NCBI RefSeq assembly: GCF_000745975.1
Contig: NZ_JQKJ01000030.1
Location: 1 to 45,139, forward strand
Source: Desulfobacter vibrioformis DSM 8776
Lineage (GTDB): Bacteria > Desulfobacterota > Desulfobacteria > Desulfobacterales > Desulfobacteraceae
Reading direction: 5' to 3'
Length of the DNA: 45,139 nt
Below are positions 31,579 through 42,006 of this stretch, piece after piece (the first letter of the stretch is position 1; the number at the start of each line of letters is the position of its first letter). The position numbers and the translations under genes were made by a program. The notes beneath the pieces are model-generated. The model was not told the DNA's origin and did not search any database. It saw only the letters and a program-made list of their open reading frames with translations.

Positions 31579-32151
31579 ATGAATGCAGACAGCGGACGAT
31601 CTTTTACAAGGCAGAATCACCCGGCAGGAACCCTTACCGTGGACCAGGTGGCTGAAAATCTTTCAGCCTTTGCCATTGACAGGGCTGACATTAAATCGCT
31701 TTTAGGTTCAATCCCCGAAGGACACCCCACTGACCTGACCCGTCTGGAATATGAACTGGCCATTCTTAAAATCCTGAGTGTGGGGTGGGGGCTTGCCTTT
31801 TTCATGCCGGCAACAGATATGAACAAAGCCCCTTTGACCCAGACATTCTGGGAACAGATCCGCCAGATTGCCAATAATGTGTCAACCCTGACGGAAACCA
31901 CCACAGGCAATCGCATTGATTATTTTGCCATACTCAAGGAGCGCCTGGATACCTTTGTGCAGCAGATGCAGGAACACCAGGCCGAAAAAACCGATCCCAC
32001 CGATGTCATGGGGCCTGTGTTTGCCAATGCCTGCGGGGCCCCGGATGACCCCGTGGTTATCCTTGCCGGAACCAAGATGTTTGCCCTGACCCTGGGGGCG
32101 GTCAAAGAGTATCTGGCTGCCGTGAAGATAAAGGATATCACCATTCACTGA
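31579..32151 (+). CDS. Hypothetical protein (190 aa)
   Basis: I do not recognise a family. It is predicted soluble and mostly helical, without a signal peptide or membrane segment. One moderately hydrophobic stretch (ILSVGWGLAFFMPATD) lies near residue 70. The C-terminal third reads VMGPVFANACGAPDDPVVILAGTKMFALTLG. Base use and codon style match the neighbours. It lies 27 bp before the rhomboid gene on the same strand, so the two may be co-transcribed. Confidence 0.72.
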   Translation: MNADSGRSFTRQNHPAGTLTVDQVAENLSAFAIDRADIKSLLGSIPEGHPTDLTRLEYELAILKILSVGWGLAFFMPATDMNKAPLTQTFWEQIRQIANNVSTLTETTTGNRIDYFAILKERLDTFVQQMQEHQAEKTDPTDVMGPVFANACGAPDDPVVILAGTKMFALTLGAVKEYLAAVKIKDITIH

Positions 32152-32178: not shown

Positions 32179-32889
32179 ATGACAGATAAGCGGATAAAAT
32201 TTACGATCCAGGCGATGATCTGGATCAACGTGATCATGTATGCCGTGTCCCTGCTGTTCTCCCAAGGGCTTCATTTTACCCTGAATCCCTTAAACGCCCT
32301 GGCACCGTCCAGTGATGCCCTGGTTTTCCTTGGTGCCTCCGGGACCGTTCCCCTGGCCTATTTTCATGACTGGTACAGCATTTTCACCGCAAACTGGCTG
32401 CACGGCAGCCTGTTGCACATTCTTTTCAACATGATGGCGCTTCACACCCTTGCTCCGCTTACGGCAAAGGAATTCGGGCTTTACCGGATGCTGTCCATCT
32501 ATATCCTTTCCGGTGCCGGCGGTTTTTTTCTCTCCTGCCTGGGCGGTGTGCCTTTGACCATCGGGGCCTCTGCCGGCCTTTGCGGACTGATCGGCGCCTT
32601 GCTTTATTTTGGCTGGTCCCGGGGCGGTATCTGGGGAAAGATGGTTTTTGATCAGACCAAGTCCTGGATTTTAAGCCTGGTGATTATTGGACTGATCCTG
32701 CCCAACATCAACAACTGGGGCCATGGCGGCGGGTTTGCCGCAGGCTTTATCCTGGCATTTCTCCTCGGGTATGAGGAGCGCCGCACATCAGGAAAAATCG
32801 ATATTCTGGTTTGCGCAGGGCTGTCCGTGTTTACCTGTTTTCTTCTGTTTCGTTCGGTTTTCAACGGTATGGAACTGATGCTGAAATAG
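32179..32889 (+). CDS. Rhomboid-family intramembrane serine protease
   Basis: 236 residues with about six membrane helices. Rhomboid landmarks: HGSLLHILFNMMAL (L1/TM2 His and Asn), GASAGLCGLIGAL (the GxSx nucleophile serine), and GHGGGFAAGF (catalytic His in the late TM helix). It cleaves substrates within the membrane. The substrate is unknown. It ends 56 bp before the PfaC-like gene. Confidence 0.88.
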   Translation: MTDKRIKFTIQAMIWINVIMYAVSLLFSQGLHFTLNPLNALAPSSDALVFLGASGTVPLAYFHDWYSIFTANWLHGSLLHILFNMMALHTLAPLTAKEFGLYRMLSIYILSGAGGFFLSCLGGVPLTIGASAGLCGLIGALLYFGWSRGGIWGKMVFDQTKSWILSLVIIGLILPNINNWGHGGGFAAGFILAFLLGYEERRTSGKIDILVCAGLSVFTCFLLFRSVFNGMELMLK

Positions 32890-32945: not shown

Positions 32946-35900
32946 ATGGGCTCCATGATTTTGAAACGCGCAGATATAGCCGTGGTCGGCATGTCCGGTA
33001 TTTTTCCCGGGGCCTGTGATACCCGGCAGTTCATTGCCAATGTCATGGCGAAAAAATCCAGTGTGATCCCGGTCCCCCGGGACCGGTGGGGGGGGCTGCC
33101 TGACATCATGGTGGACAACCGCGCCGGAACCCCGTTGCCGGACCGGGCCCGCAGCCGGTTTGCCGGGCTTATTTCCCAATCCGTATTCAATCCGTCCAAT
33201 GTTGACTTTTCCGGTGGGGACATGGCCGGGCATGGTCTGGATCGTGATTTTTTCCACGCCCTGGACCCGGTGCATCATTTGGCCCTTGCCGCCGGCCTTG
33301 AGCTTATGGCCAATGCCCGGCTTTCCAAAGAAAACCGGGAGCGCACAGGGGTTGTGCTTGCTGCCATTGCCCTGCCCACGCCGGGGGCATCCCGGCTGAC
33401 CCGGGATCTTTTTTTGTCTCCAAATCCTGACATGCCCTCCTGGCAACAGGCCTGGGGTGCCGGCATGCTGTCGGCACCTGCATCGATTCTGGCAAGGGTA
33501 TTGGGATTGACCGGCGGCAGTTTCACCCTGGATGCCGCCTGTGCCTCTTCCCTGTTCTCCATAAAGCTTGCCTGCGAACAACTGCTCTCAGGACGGGTGG
33601 ATGCCATGGTGGCCGGCGGGGTATCCCGGCCCCAGTCCCTTTACACCCAGGTGGGATTTACCCAGCTCCAGGCCCTGTCACCCACGGGCCGGTGCGCCCC
33701 CTTTGACCGGGATGCCGATGGCCTGGTGGTGGGGGAGGGCGCCGGCCTGGTTCTGCTCAAACGCCTGGACCATGCCCTGGCCTGCGGAGACACCATCCAC
33801 GCCGTGATCAAAGGATGGGGGGTGAGCAACGATATTGAAGGCAACCTTGTGGCCCCGGCCAGTGAAGGCCAGGTTAGGGCCATGTCCAGTGCCTTTGGCA
33901 TGGCTGGCTGGTCCTTTGGTGACATCCAGTACATGGAGTGCCACGGTTCCGGAACCCCCAAGGGGGACCAGGTGGAAGTCCAGAGTATCATGAAGATGCT
34001 TGAAACATACCAGTGCATGGACACGGCCCTGTCCATGGGTTCGGTGAAGTCCAACATCGGCCATCTGCTGACCGGTGCGGGTGCTGCCGGATTCATCAAA
34101 ACGGTCATGGCCATGAACCAGGGCCTGCTGCCCCCATCAAACAATTTCAATGCCCTGCCCGACGACTCCCCGTTAAATGGCACGGGTGTCAGGGTCCAGG
34201 ATCAGCCTTGTGCCTGGGTATCTGCCGGCGAGGGCCAGCCTTTGCGGGCAGCGGTATCTGCCTTTGGGTTTGGCGGCATCAATGCCCAGATCCTTGTGGA
34301 GTCTTTTACGGCCGGATCACGCAGCCATGCCAAGGGTGTTGCGCCGGTCCCGGCCGAAAAAAGTGTGCCCTGCGCCATTGTGGGTATGGGCCTGATATCG
34401 GGTGGCGCTGACTGCCTTGGGGATTTTTCCCATCTCATTTCCGGGGAGAAAACAATTGTGGGCCGCTCCGGAGAAACCCGGTGGCGCAGGTTTGACCATC
34501 TTCCCCCTGATATCTGCGGCGCTTTAACTCTGTTCATGGATGATTTGAATATTGATCTCAAAGATTTTAATATCCCCCCCAACCAGATGAACCAAATTCT
34601 GCCCCAGCATCTGATTATGCTAAAAGCAGCCATGGCAGCCATGGCAGATGCCGGTATCTCCTTGAAACCGGATGAGTCGCACTCGCCCCGGGTAAACATG
34701 GGGTGTGCCGTGGGCATTGAATTTGATTTCGGGGCCACGGACTATCATTTAAGGTGGCAGGTCCAGATTCAGGGGCAAGGCCAGGGAAGCAATGTCCCTG
34801 AAGACTTGCTGGATACCATCGGGCCGTCATTAAATTTTGATTCAACACTGGGGGCTTTGGGCGGTATTGTGGCGTCCCGCCTGGCCCGGGCATTTAAACT
34901 GGGCGGCCCCTGCTTTACCCTGTCTGCGGACGAAGCGTCGGGGCTGACAGCCATTGATATTGCCGTTAAATCCCTGTCCGCAGGGGAGACCGACACCTTC
35001 TTATGTGCAGCCGTGGATCTTGCCGCTGACATCAGAAGCTTTACCCGGGACCTGGTCCTGACCGGTGCGGACCCCATGGCCCTGCCTTCGGAAGGGGCTG
35101 TGGCCCTGGTGCTCAAACCCCTGGATGCAGCCCAGCGGGACAATGACCGGATTTATGCCGTGGTCAATGGCGTGGGACGTGCCGGCGGTGCGGCCCTTGC
35201 CGGGGAAACCGGTGATCAGGCACAAGCCTCGCGGTCAACAGTTGTCCGGACTTCTTTACAAAAGGCCCTGGATCACGCGGGTATGGATTTAAATGATATC
35301 GGGCTTGGCGCAGTGACGCACAGCGGGTCTCACTTTCTGGGGGCAGGGGAGGTGTCTGGGTTTGAACCCAATGCGTTGCCGGTTTTCTGCCCATCTGCTT
35401 TATCCGGTCATACCGGGGCTGCCGCAGGCCTTTTTACCGTTACAGCCGCGGCATTGTGCCTTTACGCCCAAAGGTTTCCAGGGCCGTTGCACAATTATCC
35501 CGGCGCCCCCAAAACCGCTGTGGCAGGATGCCTGACCCGGGATGGCATTGCAGGACATGTTGTATTGTCAGGCTTTCATCATTCAGGGCAGGGCGGGGCG
35601 TTTCCAAAAGTTGCGCCCGCCCCGGAGAAAAGCGGGCAGTCATCCACCTGCATCCGGATTCCTCTGACCCGCCCGCCGTTTCCCCGGGCTTTGATTGCCA
35701 AAGAAGCGTTTGAACCATTCCCGCAGGAAAATTTTTTTGATCGTTGTCCCGAACCACCCAATACGCCACTTGCCTTTCCCTGTGACACGCTCCCGGGACT
35801 GCTGGCCCATACCCAGGAAGTGACGGCCAGGGCCCACGAACGTTTCCTGGAATTATCCGCCCAAAACACCCGGGCCATGGCCGAACAGCTTGCCGCCATT

Positions 35901-37187
35901 GCCGGCGCAGTGCCAAAGGGGTGGCATGGGTCAACCGGTCCGGAACCGGTCTGTTTGCCCCGGGATATTGCACAGAAGCCCGAACCATTCATGGACCGGG
36001 ACCAATGCCTTGAATTTGCCGTGGGAAAAGCCGGAAACGTGCTGGGGCCTGATTTCGATATTATTGACACCTACCCGGTCCGGGTACGGTTGCCGGCTGA
36101 ACCGTTGATGCTGGTGGACCGGATTGTATCCGTGCACGGGGAAAAACTGTCCCTGACTTCCGGGAAAGTGGTCACCCAGCATGATGTGCATGATAATGCC
36201 TGGTACCTGGACGGCGGCAAAGCCCCGGTCTCCATCTCTATTGAAGCGGGCCAGGCCGATCTTTTCCTTTGCTCCTGGCTGGGCATTGACCATGTGGTCA
36301 AAGGAAAACGCAAATACCGGCTGCTTGACGCCAGGGTGACCTTCCACCGCAGCCTGCCCGTGCCGGGTGAAACCATTGAATACCACATTGAGATAGACCG
36401 GTTTTTAAGGCAGGGGGAGATCTATCTTTTCTTTTTCCATTACCAGGGATATATTAATCAGCTGCCCTTTATCTCCATGCGCGATGGGTGCGCAGGGTTT
36501 TTCACCGAACAGGAGGTGGAAAATTCCGGGGGCATTATCCTGAAAAAAGAAGATAAGGACATGGCTGTCCAGGGACCGCCGCCGGCCTGGTTTGCCCCGG
36601 TGAAACGGCTGGGCCTGAATGATGAACAGGTGGATGCCCTTCGCACAGGGGATCTTGAAACCGCGTTTGGAGCAGATTTTAAAGGAAAGCGCACCGGAAG
36701 AAATCAATGGCTGCCCGGCGGGCCCATGGGGCTGATCCACCGGGTTCTTGACCTGGACCCAGCCGGCGGGCGGTTCGGCATGGGCCGGATCATTGCCCAG
36801 GCAGATATCCATCCCGATGACTGGTTTCTGACCTGCCATTTTATTGATGACATGGTGATGCCGGGCACCCTGATGTATGAATGCTGTGCCCATACCCTGC
36901 GGGTCTTTGTCCAGCGCATGGGCTGGGTTCTGCCCCATGACGGCATCTGCTATGATGTGCTGGAGAAAAACGAAAGTGATCTGAAGTGCCGGGGACCTGT
37001 GACCCGGGCTACGAAAAAAGCCCTTTACGACATTGAAATAAAAACAATCGGGTATGAACCCCAACCTTTTGTGACGGCGGATGCCCATATGTTTTCCGAT
37101 GACCTTGAGATTGTGTTCTACAAGGATATGGGAATGAAACTGGAAGGGGTGACCCGCCAGGATCTTGAGGCATACTGGAGAAGATAA
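32946..37187 (+). CDS. pfaC: PfaC-like polyunsaturated fatty acid/polyketide synthase (KS-CLF-DH-DH)
   Basis: 1413 residues from ATG 32946; ATG 32955 is possible, and a longer frame overlapping the rhomboid gene is unlikely. Ketosynthase (about 3-425): catalytic Cys199 in DAACASS, His333 in ECHGSGT and His373 in NIGHL. A second KS-fold (about 430-885) has the nucleophile replaced (SADEASG near 662), typical of a chain-length factor. Two FabA-like dehydratase domains follow (about 1040-1190 with SIEAGQADLFL; about 1215-1400 with CHFIDDMVMPGTLMYE). That order matches PfaC of marine PUFA synthases, at a shorter overall length than the roughly 2000 residues of gammaproteobacterial PfaC. No ACP, acyltransferase, ketoreductase or enoyl reductase domain is present, so partners must be elsewhere. 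It overlaps oleA by 1 bp, implying coupling to hydrocarbon synthesis. Confidence 0.85.
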   Translation: MGSMILKRADIAVVGMSGIFPGACDTRQFIANVMAKKSSVIPVPRDRWGGLPDIMVDNRAGTPLPDRARSRFAGLISQSVFNPSNVDFSGGDMAGHGLDRDFFHALDPVHHLALAAGLELMANARLSKENRERTGVVLAAIALPTPGASRLTRDLFLSPNPDMPSWQQAWGAGMLSAPASILARVLGLTGGSFTLDAACASSLFSIKLACEQLLSGRVDAMVAGGVSRPQSLYTQVGFTQLQALSPTGRCAPFDRDADGLVVGEGAGLVLLKRLDHALACGDTIHAVIKGWGVSNDIEGNLVAPASEGQVRAMSSAFGMAGWSFGDIQYMECHGSGTPKGDQVEVQSIMKMLETYQCMDTALSMGSVKSNIGHLLTGAGAAGFIKTVMAMNQGLLPPSNNFNALPDDSPLNGTGVRVQDQPCAWVSAGEGQPLRAAVSAFGFGGINAQILVESFTAGSRSHAKGVAPVPAEKSVPCAIVGMGLISGGADCLGDFSHLISGEKTIVGRSGETRWRRFDHLPPDICGALTLFMDDLNIDLKDFNIPPNQMNQILPQHLIMLKAAMAAMADAGISLKPDESHSPRVNMGCAVGIEFDFGATDYHLRWQVQIQGQGQGSNVPEDLLDTIGPSLNFDSTLGALGGIVASRLARAFKLGGPCFTLSADEASGLTAIDIAVKSLSAGETDTFLCAAVDLAADIRSFTRDLVLTGADPMALPSEGAVALVLKPLDAAQRDNDRIYAVVNGVGRAGGAALAGETGDQAQASRSTVVRTSLQKALDHAGMDLNDIGLGAVTHSGSHFLGAGEVSGFEPNALPVFCPSALSGHTGAAAGLFTVTAAALCLYAQRFPGPLHNYPGAPKTAVAGCLTRDGIAGHVVLSGFHHSGQGGAFPKVAPAPEKSGQSSTCIRIPLTRPPFPRALIAKEAFEPFPQENFFDRCPEPPNTPLAFPCDTLPGLLAHTQEVTARAHERFLELSAQNTRAMAEQLAAIAGAVPKGWHGSTGPEPVCLPRDIAQKPEPFMDRDQCLEFAVGKAGNVLGPDFDIIDTYPVRVRLPAEPLMLVDRIVSVHGEKLSLTSGKVVTQHDVHDNAWYLDGGKAPVSISIEAGQADLFLCSWLGIDHVVKGKRKYRLLDARVTFHRSLPVPGETIEYHIEIDRFLRQGEIYLFFFHYQGYINQLPFISMRDGCAGFFTEQEVENSGGIILKKEDKDMAVQGPPPAWFAPVKRLGLNDEQVDALRTGDLETAFGADFKGKRTGRNQWLPGGPMGLIHRVLDLDPAGGRFGMGRIIAQADIHPDDWFLTCHFIDDMVMPGTLMYECCAHTLRVFVQRMGWVLPHDGICYDVLEKNESDLKCRGPVTRATKKALYDIEIKTIGYEPQPFVTADAHMFSDDLEIVFYKDMGMKLEGVTRQDLEAYWRR

Positions 37188-38239
37188 TGAAGTACGACAA
37201 GGTGTTTATTGAATCCTTTGGATATGAGCTGGCACCCCACATCGTGACCAGCCGGGAAATTGATGAAAGACTATCCCCTTTTTTTGAGACTGTGGGATTT
37301 GTGCCGGGCCAGCTTGAGGCATTGACCGGGATCCGGGAACGCCGGTACTGGGATGAAGACCACACCCTGGCTGAGCATGCGGCCGTGGCAGGCCAGCGGG
37401 CCCTGGACGAAGCAGGCATCAGTCCCAAGGAGCTGGGTGCCCTGTGTTTTTGCGGGGTGTGCCAGGACGGGTTTGAACCGGCCACATCCTGTGCCGTGGC
37501 AGACACGATCGGGGTGGGGCCAAGGGCCCATGTATATGATGTGAAATCCGCCTGTCTTGGCATGATCACAGGCATGGTTCATGTGGCCAATGAGATTCAG
37601 CTCGGGCATATTAAGGCCGGACTTGTGGTCTCCTGCGAGTCAGCCCGGCAGATTGTGGACGCCACCATTGAAGAGATCAACACCCACAAGAGCATTGAAT
37701 TTTACAGACAGGCTGTAGCCACCATGACCGGCGGCTCCGGGTCCGCAGCCATTCTGCTCACCGACGGGACCCTGGGCAGGCCCCAAACCCCGCGCCATGC
37801 CGTCAAAGGCGGGGTGGTGAACAATTCCATCCGTCACTGGGACCTTTGTTACTGGGGATTTGAACATCAGGGCATGCCCACGGATTCAAGGGTGATCATG
37901 CGCACCAATGCCCAGAAAGTGCTTGACCACGGCACAGAGCTGGCCATGGAAACCTATAAGTTATTCCGCACAGAGCTCAATCTTCCCCCGGATAAGCCGG
38001 ATAAATTTGTTGCCCACCAGGTGGGGGAGGGACATCACCATAAATTTTACTCTGCCATGAAAATTGACCGGAAAAAGGATTTTATCACCTTTCCTTTTCT
38101 GGGCAATGTGGGATCTGTGTCCCTGCCCATTTCCGCAGCCATTGCCGACGAACGCGGATTTCTTGTTCCCGGCGATTTTGTGGCCTTTCTAGGGGTGGGT
38201 TCCGGACTTAACTGCTATTTTCTGGGGGTGGAATGGTAA
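37187..38239 (+). CDS. oleA: OleA-like thiolase for head-to-head acyl condensation
   Basis: 350 residues of the FabH/thiolase fold. OleA condenses two fatty acyl chains (one loses CoA, the other becomes the beta-keto acid) in long-chain olefin synthesis. Active-site features: DGFEPATS with Glu97, the position of the OleA-specific proton-abstracting glutamate; Cys123 in KSACLGM; His in FVAHQVGEGHH; and Asn in LGNVGS. The combination and the FGYELAPHIVTSREID opening fit OleA better than 3-oxoacyl-ACP synthase III. ATG 37187 overlaps the last base of the PfaC-like stop. It is followed, with a 7-bp overlap, by oleB. Confidence 0.85.
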   Translation: MKYDKVFIESFGYELAPHIVTSREIDERLSPFFETVGFVPGQLEALTGIRERRYWDEDHTLAEHAAVAGQRALDEAGISPKELGALCFCGVCQDGFEPATSCAVADTIGVGPRAHVYDVKSACLGMITGMVHVANEIQLGHIKAGLVVSCESARQIVDATIEEINTHKSIEFYRQAVATMTGGSGSAAILLTDGTLGRPQTPRHAVKGGVVNNSIRHWDLCYWGFEHQGMPTDSRVIMRTNAQKVLDHGTELAMETYKLFRTELNLPPDKPDKFVAHQVGEGHHHKFYSAMKIDRKKDFITFPFLGNVGSVSLPISAAIADERGFLVPGDFVAFLGVGSGLNCYFLGVEW

Positions 38240-39144
38240 CAAGAATAATAAACGGGCAGATGACTTCCACCAGAGGTTTTGAAAACCTTTATCCCTTTGA
38301 ATCCCATTATGCCCGGATCAACGGGAACCAAATGCATTATGTGGATCAGGGCAAAGGCGCGCCTGTGCTCATGGTACACGGCAACCCCACCTGGTCCTTT
38401 TATTTTCGTCATCTGATCACAGGCCTGTCCCATGGTTTCAGGACAATTGCATTGGATCACATCGGGTGCGGTTTTTCAGACAAGCCGTCGGCAAAAGACT
38501 ATGATTACACCCTGGATCAACGGGTGGCAGACCTGGATGCCCTTATCCGCCGACTGGATATTAATGAAAAAATGTCGTTGATCGTGCATGACTGGGGCGG
38601 GATGATCGGGCTTGCCTGGGCCCTGGACAACCTGGATCGTGTGGATAAAATTGTAATCACCAACACCTCGGGCTTTCTTCTGCCGGCATCCAAACGCTTT
38701 CCGGCAGCGCTGTGGGCTGTTAAATATCTTGCACCCTTTGCCGTGCCTGCTGTTTTAGGTGCCAACATATTTGCCCGGGGGGCCCTGTATCTTGCCCCGA
38801 AAACCCGGCTGCCCCAATCTGTGAAAAAGGGTCTTGTTGCCCCATACAACAGTTGGGCAAATCGCATTGCCACCTTAAAATTTGTCCAGGATATACCGGT
38901 TACAGCAAAAGACAGAAGTTATGTCAGGGTTCAGAAGGTGGATCAAAACCTTTCTGCTCTTGACCCGGCCCAGCTCATGTTTTTATGGGGAACCCGGGAT
39001 TTTGTTTTTGACATTCATTTTCTTGAGGAATTTAAAAACAGATTTCCCCGGACCCCTGCCCATGTATTTGAGGATGCCGGCCATTATCTGTTCGAAGATA
39101 AGCCCGGTCCCACCCTTGAACTGATTCAAAAATTTCTGTCCTGA
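38233..39144 (+). CDS. oleB: OleB-like alpha/beta hydrolase (beta-lactone decarboxylase)
   Basis: 303 residues, haloalkane-dehalogenase branch of alpha/beta hydrolases. HGNPTWSF forms the oxyanion strand, Asp120 in VHDWGGMIG is the nucleophile, WGTRDFVF supplies the acid region, and His284 in AGHYLFEDKPG completes the triad. OleB is known to decarboxylate cis-beta-lactones made by OleC into alkenes. The ole neighbours make that assignment more likely than a dehalogenase. It overlaps oleA by 7 bp. Confidence 0.85.
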   Translation: MVTRIINGQMTSTRGFENLYPFESHYARINGNQMHYVDQGKGAPVLMVHGNPTWSFYFRHLITGLSHGFRTIALDHIGCGFSDKPSAKDYDYTLDQRVADLDALIRRLDINEKMSLIVHDWGGMIGLAWALDNLDRVDKIVITNTSGFLLPASKRFPAALWAVKYLAPFAVPAVLGANIFARGALYLAPKTRLPQSVKKGLVAPYNSWANRIATLKFVQDIPVTAKDRSYVRVQKVDQNLSALDPAQLMFLWGTRDFVFDIHFLEEFKNRFPRTPAHVFEDAGHYLFEDKPGPTLELIQKFLS

Positions 39145-39197
39145 CATTTTCTTTTGGATTTTGACTTTCAGGTCCATTACAGATAAATAGGGGTGTT

Positions 39198-39899
39198 ATG
39201 GGACTATTTACAAAAAAAAAAAAGGATGAACCCAAGGAACCGGCCGCCCAGGTAAAACCGGTTCAGGTCCAGGACAAGGGAGACGACGACACCGAATCGG
39301 ATAAAGCCGTCCCCAAGAAGAAATCTTTGTTCAAAAAGCTGATTATTCTTCTGCTCATTCCGGGTATCCTTGGCGGGGGCGGATTTTTTGCATACACCAA
39401 ATTTTTTTCAGGTTCCGGTACCAAAGACAGCCGGGTTTACCTTCCCGTCACCCTTTCCCATGTCACGTTGCCCCAGGAGATGCTCGCCTTTTGTTTTGCC
39501 CGCATGCCTGAACTTTACGATGCCCTGGTGGCCTATGATGGGGAAATGGATTTGTTTGAGGCTGAAATTGCCCGCATTGATGCTGTGGGAACCAAGTACC
39601 CGGACCAGGAGAGGATTGCCGACGGCCAGAAAAAGGTATGGGATAAGGAAATGCAGTCTTTAAAAAAATCCTTTGAAAAATTGGAAAAACCCATTAAAGA
39701 AACCTTTGTGCTGTTCCAGGTCAACCCGACTGCAGGCCAGGAAAAGATTGATCAGACTGCAGAAGAGATGCTCCGGACTGCCAAGGAAGCCCTGGGAAAA
39801 GCCCAGGAACAGACAGCCCCGCTAAAGAAAGCCATGCCCAAGGCCCCCGAAGGCCTGGTCAAGGGAACCTTGTATAAAATAAAAAAGATGTTTTTATGA
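39198..39899 (+). CDS. Unknown single-pass membrane protein within the ole cluster
   Basis: 233 residues, no family recognised. Highly charged N-terminus (KKKKDEPKEP), one membrane helix (about 46-68, LIILLLIPGILGGGGFFAY), then a helical, Lys/Glu-rich domain that looks coiled-coil (residues about 95-215; ELYDALVAYDGEMDLFEAEI). Topology with positive residues at the N side suggests the long C-terminal part is outside. It ends 4 bp into oleC (ATGA) and follows oleB by 53 bp, so it is coupled to both. It may anchor or organise the Ole enzymes, which form large complexes in other bacteria; this is speculative. Confidence 0.75.
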   Translation: MGLFTKKKKDEPKEPAAQVKPVQVQDKGDDDTESDKAVPKKKSLFKKLIILLLIPGILGGGGFFAYTKFFSGSGTKDSRVYLPVTLSHVTLPQEMLAFCFARMPELYDALVAYDGEMDLFEAEIARIDAVGTKYPDQERIADGQKKVWDKEMQSLKKSFEKLEKPIKETFVLFQVNPTAGQEKIDQTAEEMLRTAKEALGKAQEQTAPLKKAMPKAPEGLVKGTLYKIKKMFL

Positions 39900-41545
39900 C
39901 ACGCCATACAAATATTGCCCAAAGCCTGAAACAATCCGCACAAATCTATCCGTTCAAACAGGCCGTGGTCTACCCTGCCTCACGGGATAATGCCGGGCGG
40001 GTTCTTTACAGCCAGATGACCTTTCGCCAGCTTGACCAGCAGTCCGACAGCCTTGCAGCCGGGCTTACCAGCATCGGCATTGGCCGGGGAACCCGCACCA
40101 TTTTAATGGTACCCCCGGGCATGGAATTTTTTCTTACGGTGTTTGCCATGTTTAAGGTCGGGGCGGTGCCCGTGGTGGTGGATCCTGGCATGGGGATTGG
40201 CCGGATGCTGCAATGCCTTGCCCAAAGCCGGCCCAAGGCCTTTATCGGCATTGAAAAGGCCCATGTGCTTCGAACCTTGCGTCCCGGATTTTTTAAAACA
40301 GTGAAACGATGGGTGACTGTGGGCAGAAAATGGTTCTGGGGCGGGTACACCTTGAACCAGCTGATGAACAAATTCCCGGCCGCTCCTTTCAAACCGGCCC
40401 AGACCACGGAGAGCGAGACAGCTGCCATTGTATTTACCACGGGCTCCACAGGGCCTGCCAAGGGCGTGATATACACCCATGGAAATTTTGAAGCCCAGAT
40501 CCGTCAGATCCGGTCACATTTTAAAATTGCGCCTGATGAGATAGACCTGCCCACCTTTCCTTTGTTTGCTTTGTTTGATCCTGCCCTGGGCATGACCGCA
40601 GTGATCCCGGATATGGATCCCACAAAACCTGCCCTGGTGGACCCCGTAAAAATTATCGAGGCCATTGAGAACCATGGTGTGACCAATATGTTTGCCTCCC
40701 CGGCCCTTTTGAAGCGGGTAGGAAAATACGGTCAGGAAAACGGGATCAAACTGCCGTCCCTGCGCCGTGTGGTGTCTGCAGGCGCCCCTGTCAGTCCGGC
40801 CAATATTGAACAGTTTTCATCCATGCTGTCCAATGATACCCAGATCCATACCCCGTACGGGGCCACGGAAGCGGTTCCCATCATATCCATCGGTTCCCAT
40901 GAGATTTTGTCGGAAACCAGAAAACTCTCGGAACAGGGATTTGGCATGTGCGTGGGCCGGCCCATTGCAGATACAAAAATAAAATTGATCAAGATTTGTG
41001 ACGAGCCCATCACCCAGATCCGGGATAACCTGGAGGTGCCTGAAGGTCAGGTGGGAGAAATAACGGTAAAAGCAGATCTTGTTACCGAGCATTATTTTAA
41101 TAATTCCAATGCTGATCTCATGGCAAAAATACCGGACCCGGACGGCACAGCATGGCACAGGATGGGGGATCTGGGCTGGAAGGATTCAAAGGGCAGGATC
41201 TGGTTCTGCGGCAGAAAAGCCCACCGGGTTGAAACGGGAAAACAGACCTTGTTCACCATCCCCGTGGAAGCCATATTCAACAATCATGAAAAGGTCTACC
41301 GCAGTGCGCTCACAGGCGTCGGCCCTAAAAACCGCCAGATTCCGGTGGTGTTTGTGGAGCCTTTTGAGAAAATATCCGATGAAAAACAATTTATCCGGGA
41401 ATTGTCTGACCTGGCCCGTAGAAATCCTTTGACCGCTGACATTGAATATATTTTTATTGAGTATAAATTTCCGGTGGATATCCGGCACAACTCCAAAATT
41501 TTCAGGGAAAACCTGGCAATCAAGGCCCGGGAATTGATCGAATGA
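39896..41545 (+). CDS. oleC: OleC-like AMP-dependent beta-lactone synthetase
   Basis: 549 residues, ANL adenylating superfamily. P-loop FTTGSTGPAKGVIYTH (about 180-195), aromatic/A5 region HTPYGATEAVP, and A7 MGDLGWKDSKGRIWFCGRKAHRV. The segment LPTFPLFALFDPALGMTAVIPDMD is characteristic of OleC rather than ordinary acyl-CoA ligases. OleC activates the beta-hydroxy acid with ATP and closes a beta-lactone that OleB then decarboxylates. It overlaps the upstream membrane gene by 4 bp and the downstream ogt gene by 4 bp. Confidence 0.88.
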   Translation: MTRHTNIAQSLKQSAQIYPFKQAVVYPASRDNAGRVLYSQMTFRQLDQQSDSLAAGLTSIGIGRGTRTILMVPPGMEFFLTVFAMFKVGAVPVVVDPGMGIGRMLQCLAQSRPKAFIGIEKAHVLRTLRPGFFKTVKRWVTVGRKWFWGGYTLNQLMNKFPAAPFKPAQTTESETAAIVFTTGSTGPAKGVIYTHGNFEAQIRQIRSHFKIAPDEIDLPTFPLFALFDPALGMTAVIPDMDPTKPALVDPVKIIEAIENHGVTNMFASPALLKRVGKYGQENGIKLPSLRRVVSAGAPVSPANIEQFSSMLSNDTQIHTPYGATEAVPIISIGSHEILSETRKLSEQGFGMCVGRPIADTKIKLIKICDEPITQIRDNLEVPEGQVGEITVKADLVTEHYFNNSNADLMAKIPDPDGTAWHRMGDLGWKDSKGRIWFCGRKAHRVETGKQTLFTIPVEAIFNNHEKVYRSALTGVGPKNRQIPVVFVEPFEKISDEKQFIRELSDLARRNPLTADIEYIFIEYKFPVDIRHNSKIFRENLAIKARELIE

Positions 41546-42006
41546 AATACAGATATATTCATTCAAAGATCGGTCCTTTGATGCTGGCCGGCAACACAGC
41601 GCTTGAACAGATCCGTTTCCCGGTCAAAGGTGAAGGAAAAGCGCCCGGGAAAGGCTGGGTAGAGGACAACACCATCTTTCCCGATGCTGTATCCCAGCTG
41701 GTGCAATATTTTGAAGGCCGGTTAAAACAATTTGACCTTGATCTGCAGCCCCAGGGAACGGATTTCCAGAGGCGAGTCTGGCAGGCACTTTTAACTGTTC
41801 CTTACGGGGCCACGGTCACCTATGGTGAGATTGCGGAACAGATTCACAACCCAAAAGCCTTCCGGGCCGTGGGCCTTGCCAACAGGTGCAACCCCATACC
41901 CATCATCATTCCCTGCCACCGTGTGATCGGCAAAAACGGGAAATTAACCGGATTTGCCGGCGGCCTTGATATCAAGCAGGCCCTTCTGGATCTGGAAAGA
42001 TCCTGA
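41542..42006 (+). CDS. ogt: Methylated-DNA-protein-cysteine methyltransferase
   Basis: 154 residues. It repairs O6-alkylguanine by transferring the alkyl group to its own cysteine, in PCHRVIGKNGKLTGFAGGL (Cys near 117). The helix-turn-helix FQRRVWQALLTVPYGATVTYGEIA is present upstream. It overlaps oleC by 4 bp, so it is coupled to the lipid cluster although the function seems unrelated. Confidence 0.95.
   Translation: MKYRYIHSKIGPLMLAGNTALEQIRFPVKGEGKAPGKGWVEDNTIFPDAVSQLVQYFEGRLKQFDLDLQPQGTDFQRRVWQALLTVPYGATVTYGEIAEQIHNPKAFRAVGLANRCNPIPIIIPCHRVIGKNGKLTGFAGGLDIKQALLDLERS

Follow-up and report, generated by a model that had tools for sequence, protein, structure and literature searches.

What is made by a polyunsaturated fatty acid (PUFA) synthase whose pfaC-type gene runs directly into the olefin genes oleA, oleB and oleC? 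The question is raised by a stretch of 45,139 nucleotides of Desulfobacter vibrioformis DSM 8776 (contig NZ_JQKJ01000030.1, positions 1 to 45,139), referred to here, in its whole length, as the window. A first-pass annotation had proposed that these genes form one transcription unit and that the product may be a polyunsaturated hydrocarbon, an interpretation that our analysis supports. Judged from its sequence, the genome of D. vibrioformis (86 contigs, 95% complete) appears to hold a complete but scattered gene set for polyunsaturated chains joined head to head into a long hydrocarbon, and we give a probability of roughly 0.75 to the reading that the Pfa synthase and OleABCD make such a hydrocarbon together, with OleA as the main exit. 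Genomes, contigs and loci are denoted by G, C and L numbers, respectively.

Organization of pfaC and the ole genes

The pfaC-type gene (32946..37187, + strand) encodes a subunit of 1413 aa with a ketosynthase (KS), a CLF-like half and one FabA-like dehydratase (DH) module. Its stop codon TAA shares the last base with the ATG of oleA at position 37187 (TAATG), which gives the 1-bp overlap read at first pass. The gene for the head-to-head acyl condensing enzyme, oleA (37187..38239, + strand), overlaps in turn with oleB (38233..39144, + strand), followed by X (39198..39899, + strand), encoding a 233-aa predicted membrane protein, and by oleC (39896..41545, + strand). From pfaC through ogt, the gene after oleC, all genes are on the + strand and packed by overlaps or short gaps, and the coordinates bear out the tight packing of oleA, oleB, the extra gene and oleC behind pfaC. 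From this packing we infer a single transcript across the locus. Both promoter-like sites (12 found vs 8.3 in shuffles, standard deviation 2.8) and terminator-like sites (18 found vs 16.9 in shuffles, standard deviation 4.6) were near chance.

OleA scored 411.9 bits with NF006720 (cut-off 285), and its best PDB matches were 3fk5, 3row and related OleA-type entries. We take 3fk5 and the related entries to be OleA of Xanthomonas, and the catalytic residues are presumably Cys, Glu, His and Asn, all of which kept their positions in an alignment with the PDB OleA. Since these residues match those of Xanthomonas OleA, the protein does not come from an unrelated family, as might have been feared for the original interpretation. 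OleB is an alpha/beta hydrolase (PF00561) with HDWGG and GHYLFE motifs and, by position and fold, a putative beta-lactone decarboxylase; its relatives in PDB are haloalkane dehalogenases, and its NCBIfam matches included no olefin-specific model. OleC belongs to the AMP-dependent beta-lactone synthetase family (NF006754, 727.1 bits, cut-off 478), and a PDB sequence search with it returned none at E<=1e-30. The OleB and OleC of the OleABCD pathway are thus both represented.

Within PfaC, the KS covers residues ~1-460 (PF00109/PF02801), the CLF-like half ~500-850 and the double-hotdog FabA-like DH ~1000-1413 (PF07977). The KS residues Cys199, His333 and His373 and the DH residue His1298 were invariant in 11 aligned proteins. 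By reading of the sequence, the CLF half aligns without the Cys, and the DH module consists of two hot-dog halves with the catalytic His kept in the second half only. The active KS plus CLF of a Pfa-type synthase is therefore in place. The protein had been described earlier as KS-CLF-DH-DH; the KS-CLF part of that description holds, while Pfam scored one FabA stretch and hence one DH module in place of two. A two-DH PfaC was rejected, and the counterpart of the second module sits elsewhere, as described below.

Partner genes on other contigs

The first-pass annotation would have been refuted by a lack of pfaA- and pfaD-type partners in the genome combined with a lack of long-chain olefin in the lipids, and both partners were found on contig C12. 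The pfaD gene (C12:120568-121887) scored 615.2 bits (cut-off 449.25), and beside it are genes for a 1365-aa KS-MAT-ACP-ACP protein (pfaA), with two acyl carrier protein (ACP) motifs, and for a 1170-aa protein with a ketoreductase (KR), a polyketide synthase (PKS)-type DH and a FabA-like DH. These two proteins match the PfaA model TIGR02813 over different parts (972.5 and 334.2 bits), so that the KS, MAT, tandem ACP and KR of a PfaA are all there, divided between two genes. pfaA is split in this genome and in G003, G017 and G018, and whole in G007, G014 and G033.

Two phosphopantetheinyl transferase (PPTase) genes were detected in the genome, and the one on C20 bears YRACLS and FNLSH, in agreement with the P0 and P1b motifs given for PUFA-type PPTases in PMC3098273. 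The search for oleD was less clear-cut: an OleD-like gene on C15 (C15:26898-27863) was the clear best match, with a score (382.9 bits) to which we return below. OleD-like genes are found directly 3′ of oleC in 8 loci from members of the order.

The second FabA-like DH module lies at the C terminus of the C12 KR protein. Longer PfaC proteins from other families of the order carry an extra C-terminal DH module after the one that they share with the window's protein, and the C terminus of the KR protein is 43-52% identical to this extra module in 14 order members (51% to G038), 37% and 30% identical to that of two more distant PfaC types, and only 21-28% identical to the first modules of PfaC listed. 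Since the identity is far higher to the extra module than to the first ones, this DH module most likely changed subunit. In the window's family it ends the PfaA/KR side (D. vibrioformis, G003, G007, G014, G017, G018 and G033), and the outer families point to PfaC as its older place. Our comparison set started from 103 PfaC proteins complete in their KS and DH regions (partial ones omitted) and comprised 93 once duplicates had been dropped; these 93 are relatives of the window's protein and not a random sample. The extra module is present on 54 of them and missing on 39, although L152 and L156 among the latter are cut by the contig end; outside the window's family, it is missing from PfaC in L067 (G052), L130 and L173.

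The missing acyltransferase

No match to the PfaB family (TIGR02816) at E<=0.001 was found in the genome of D. vibrioformis, and no acyltransferase (AT) domain was found in the window's PfaC; the PfaB or PfaB-like AT of the synthases of eicosapentaenoic acid (EPA) and docosahexaenoic acid type (Types A and B) is missing here. Among the first 40 PfaC proteins, an AT separates CLF from DH in 19, each bearing a GHSLGE, GYSLGE or GYSMGE motif, and the other 21 are without one. In the set of 93, an AT is present in 58 and absent from 35, with AT-less forms in several genera. On a quick tree, the AT state changed 12 times by parsimony, or 15 times if only losses are counted, and 7 independent pairs were found on well-supported branches. 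Therefore, the AT changed repeatedly, even though weakly supported branches of a tree built quickly may inflate the larger counts.

Proposed route to a polyunsaturated hydrocarbon

In the proposed route, the PUFA-type PPTase would first activate the ACPs, on which PfaC (KS-CLF-DH), PfaD, PfaA (KS-MAT-ACP2) and the KR-DH-DH protein would build a polyunsaturated acyl chain. At a length of about C16-C18 the chains would be handed over to OleA, as the main or only exit, which would condense two ACP-borne chains head to head; OleD would then reduce the product, OleC would form the beta-lactone and OleB would remove CO2, yielding a long olefin with multiple double bonds, for example C31:9. The sequence itself establishes which genes are there, how they are ordered, their domains and catalytic residues and the lack of the AT; the joint action of these proteins, the chain length and the product are all predictions of our analysis. 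According to PMC12895367, PfaB is a late acyltransferase without which E. coli gave no detectable PUFA above C18. OleA draws chains from Pfa ACPs, and co-expression of oleA with pfaABCDE suffices for a 31:8 ketone (PMC6463001). For C31:9, the predicted route is the condensation of two 16:4 chains by Ole proteins (PMC4882568). Taken with the AT-less synthase, these reports favour the transfer of a chain of about C16 to OleA as the most likely route. Lacking the PfaB-like AT, the synthase would probably not extend the chain beyond about C16-C18, and the chain would leave mainly or only through OleA, which argues for a synthase for hydrocarbon and not for phospholipid. Given the reported need for PfaB beyond C18 and the draw of OleA on Pfa ACPs, a synthase devoted to hydrocarbon is the best reading.

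One may go a step further, at odds somewhat short of even, and suppose that a PUFA synthase gave up its long-chain AT and became a dedicated hydrocarbon synthase, with OleA, translated in overlap with PfaC, as its release enzyme. Repeated AT loss in pfa-ole systems would then imply that only the exit to membrane PUFAs requires the AT, and DH modules could move between subunits of the complex. If true, anaerobic sulfate reducers would form polyunsaturated hydrocarbons without oxygen by a reduced synthase. They would offer a natural experiment on the role of PfaB, which a study from 2026 (PMC12895367) approached by direct biochemistry, as well as a simpler enzyme set for such hydrocarbons, whose function in strict anaerobes could be tested in cultured Desulfobacter.

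Conservation of the gene set and its order

We examined 59 genomes, that of D. vibrioformis and 58 relatives. OleA was over the cut-off in 54 of them, and so was PfaD, the latter count taking in PfaD-like genes of other clusters. By reading of the match table, an orthologous PfaC is present in 53 of the 59 (D. vibrioformis included, some as pieces), and it is lacking in G001 (56% complete), G010, G024 (70% complete), G040, G048 and G055; the sole OleA of G010 and of G048 is a distant one, sharing 33% and 32% identity, respectively, with OleA of the window. Among the 53 genomes with PfaC, OleA passed the cut-off in 52, the exception being G012 (74% complete). Most genomes of the same genus have a PfaC 83-89% identical to the window's protein; the values were 60-61% for G014 and G007 and 55-68% for G011, where PfaC is in two pieces.

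As to gene order, oleA starts within 700 bp of pfaC in 71 of the 93 PfaC loci (L189 resting on a long overlapping frame), it does not in 14 (in L086 it is 851 bp away), and 8 were undecidable at a contig end. A comparison with other Desulfobacterales had been suggested at first pass, and the order pfaC-oleA-oleB-(X)-oleC does recur in relatives; thus, the arrangement is not due to chance. In Desulfobacter latus (L117), the nearest named relative encountered, pfaC-oleA-oleB-X-oleC-pfaD-pfaA stand in one row, and G018 and G017, from the same genus, are arranged likewise; pfaC-oleABC-pfaD are joined in three same-genus loci, with pfaD directly 3′ of oleC. The full row pfaD-pfaA-pfaC-oleA-oleB-oleC-oleD was identified in metagenome-assembled genomes (MAGs) of Geobacteraceae/Desulfuromonadaceae (L175, L184 and L190), Gammaproteobacteria (L166, L172 and L177), Acidobacteria (L167 and L193) and Planctomycetota (L186 and L189).

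Contrary evidence and alternative explanations

Several observations weigh against a joint Pfa-Ole pathway in D. vibrioformis. The first half of pfaA alone, at 972.5 bits, is just under the TIGR02813 cut-off of 1010.1; the OleD-like protein is below the NCBI cut-off of 580 (reached by 0 of the 59 genomes); and OleC scored 594.3 and 586.8 bits on olefin beta-lactone synthetase models with cut-offs of 900 and 850. The OleD-like gene, pfaA, pfaD and the PPTase gene are unlinked to the window, the genes lying at no fewer than four places of the genome and not in the single row of a Type I supercluster. An AT of another family may act in trans. Our literature search, as far as the sources were accessible, found no lipid data for the organism. 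Finally, AT loss might be expected to accompany close linkage if it resulted from OleA being the exit. oleA is adjacent to 33 of the 35 AT-less PfaC genes and not to the other 2, but it also stands beside AT-bearing ones (38 adjacent, 12 not and 8 undecidable, of 58), and neither adjacency nor overlap of oleA was significantly associated with AT loss in sign tests, which had the low power of 7 pairs. An explanation of AT loss by oleA adjacency or overlap was therefore set aside as a hypothesis only, suggested by the raw counts and not upheld on the tree.

Of the other explanations, the one that survives best, though unlikely, is that OleA uses type II fatty acyl chains for a less unsaturated olefin or ketone while the PfaC set makes a separate lipid, their adjacency being inherited and not functional. 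OleA homologs do accept chains from either type II fatty acid synthase or Pfa (PMC6463001), ole genes can lie apart from the synthase (Shulse and Allen, PMC3098273), as in the 14 loci without oleA inside 700 bp, and pfaA and pfaD of D. vibrioformis are located elsewhere. However, two unconnected pathways would not be expected from the stop-start overlap in the window, from pfaC-oleA adjacency across phyla, or from the published draw of OleA on Pfa ACPs (PMC6463001). OleA and PfaC distances also rise together (r = 0.92, 72 loci), a value uncorrected for shared ancestry, which alone could yield it.

It is more doubtful still that the Pfa synthase also feeds ordinary membrane fatty acids, with the hydrocarbon as a side product. 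This possibility arises from FabZ (TIGR01750), which was over the cut-off in 0 of the 36 genomes of the window's family vs 17 of the 23 others of the order, and from the suggestion that a Pfa-like cluster is the core synthase in Desulfobacterium autotrophicum, which is without fabA and fabZ (Shulse and Allen, PMC3098273). On the other hand, the AT for long-chain transfer is missing, and a better candidate for the role is a separate type I synthase of 3924 aa, which has a PPTase of its own. Moreover, D. vibrioformis encodes two lower-scoring FabZ-like proteins (109.8 and 103.5 bits), and one in G003 narrowly misses the cut-off (153.1 vs 155.15). For the FabZ step, the window's family may rely on a different enzyme, the type I synthase being one possibility.

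That this dispersed gene set without an AT is in decay and yields no product, as its split pfaA, its separated oleD, pfaA and pfaD and the description of the D. autotrophicum pfa genes as possible remnants in a review (PMC4882568) might suggest, is very improbable in view of the open reading frames, the intact catalytic residues and motifs of KS, DH, OleA, OleB and OleC, the conservation of PfaC within the genus and the spread of AT-less forms over several genera.

Comparison with known pfa-ole systems

The joint Pfa-Ole pathway that we favour has published counterparts. Shulse and Allen (2011, PMC3098273) found ole genes alongside pfa-like clusters in 44 of 80 genomes, the two being often linked, and proposed that the products of Type I clusters are used for olefin synthesis; linkage as such is therefore not new here. 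What departs from the known systems is the shift of the DH module, the absence of the AT, and the scattered genes with a split pfaA. In the accessible part of the literature, searched largely without subscription journals, we found no report of a split, AT-less, DH-shifted arrangement and none of such hydrocarbons in Desulfobacter. Desulfobacteraceae oleC genes were reported from anoxic lake water in a 2023 metagenome study (PMC10176705).

The closest published case is Geobacter bemidjiensis, which makes C31:9 and has the pfa and ole genes in tandem (pfaD-A-B-C, oleA-B-C-D, pfaE; PMC4882568 and PMC3098273). We compared it by its published description, with the MAGs L175, L184 and L190 as stand-ins for its sequence. 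The protein set, the succession of pfaC, oleA, oleB and oleC, and the predicted chemistry are the same, whereas in D. vibrioformis the genes are dispersed, the AT (the pfaB part) is absent, pfaA is split, the second DH module is on the KR protein, X is inserted and oleD lies apart. Shewanella and Photobacterium resemble the route proposed for D. vibrioformis in that an ACP-borne Pfa chain is taken by OleA, but they have pfaB in a five-gene pfa set and pass EPA to phospholipids, and their pfa genes and ole genes are in different operons, which lie side by side in Photobacterium profundum SS9 (PMC6463001).

Among sulfate-reducer relatives, compared by description only, are Types K (Desulfococcus oleovorans Hxd3), likened to Type I, C (Desulfatibacillum alkenivorans), which differs by having KS-CLF-AT-DH2 in one protein, and S (D. 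autotrophicum), which may instead match the separate 3924-aa synthase on C3. This type I synthase (G000:C3:207803-219577; L038:7803-19577) has a PfaD-like ER, KS domains, an AT, four ACPs, a KR and a PKS-type DH, and the PPTase gene adjoining it encodes an ISITH motif. Long KS-matching frames of ~3700-4200 aa are found in many genomes of the order.

Protein X, neighbouring genes and distant clusters

An alignment of 12 members showed X to have a basic N terminus, a single hydrophobic helix and a long domain made up of helices, in line with a structural model (mean predicted local distance difference test score, pLDDT, 73.6) with helices at 44-69 and 93-212. Pfam matches of the 12 were scattered and weak, with no supported family, and no PDB fold match was obtained at E<=0.001. 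A large part of the window's family has X, as do L067 (G052) and L130. It was undetected in L063, L119, L120, L133, L134 and L136, where the gap between oleB and oleC is ~240 bp or less; thus, X is not essential.

Upstream of pfaC are the genes for a familyless 190-aa protein (31579..32151, + strand), found upstream in many relatives and of uncertain membership in the unit, and for a rhomboid-family membrane protease (32179..32889, + strand; PF01694, 91 bits), which ends 56 bp ahead of pfaC. The latter is kept as a neighbour in many relatives; it is probably just that, a neighbour of pfaC, and possibly co-transcribed with it. On the other side, ogt (41542..42006, + strand), encoding a methylated-DNA cysteine methyltransferase (TIGR00589, 120.7 bits), overlaps oleC by 4 bp. 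Because of this overlap and of the two upstream genes on the same strand, the unit may extend beyond pfaC-oleC. ogt is probably a passenger gene; it adjoins oleC in 4 of 8 same-genus loci read.

Distant Pfa clusters, with PfaC 31-37% identical to the window's, were observed in L114 (G025:C26), G041:C1100, L095 (G048:C71) and G019:C14, and the one in L114 has a separate pfaB-like gene between pfaA and pfaC.

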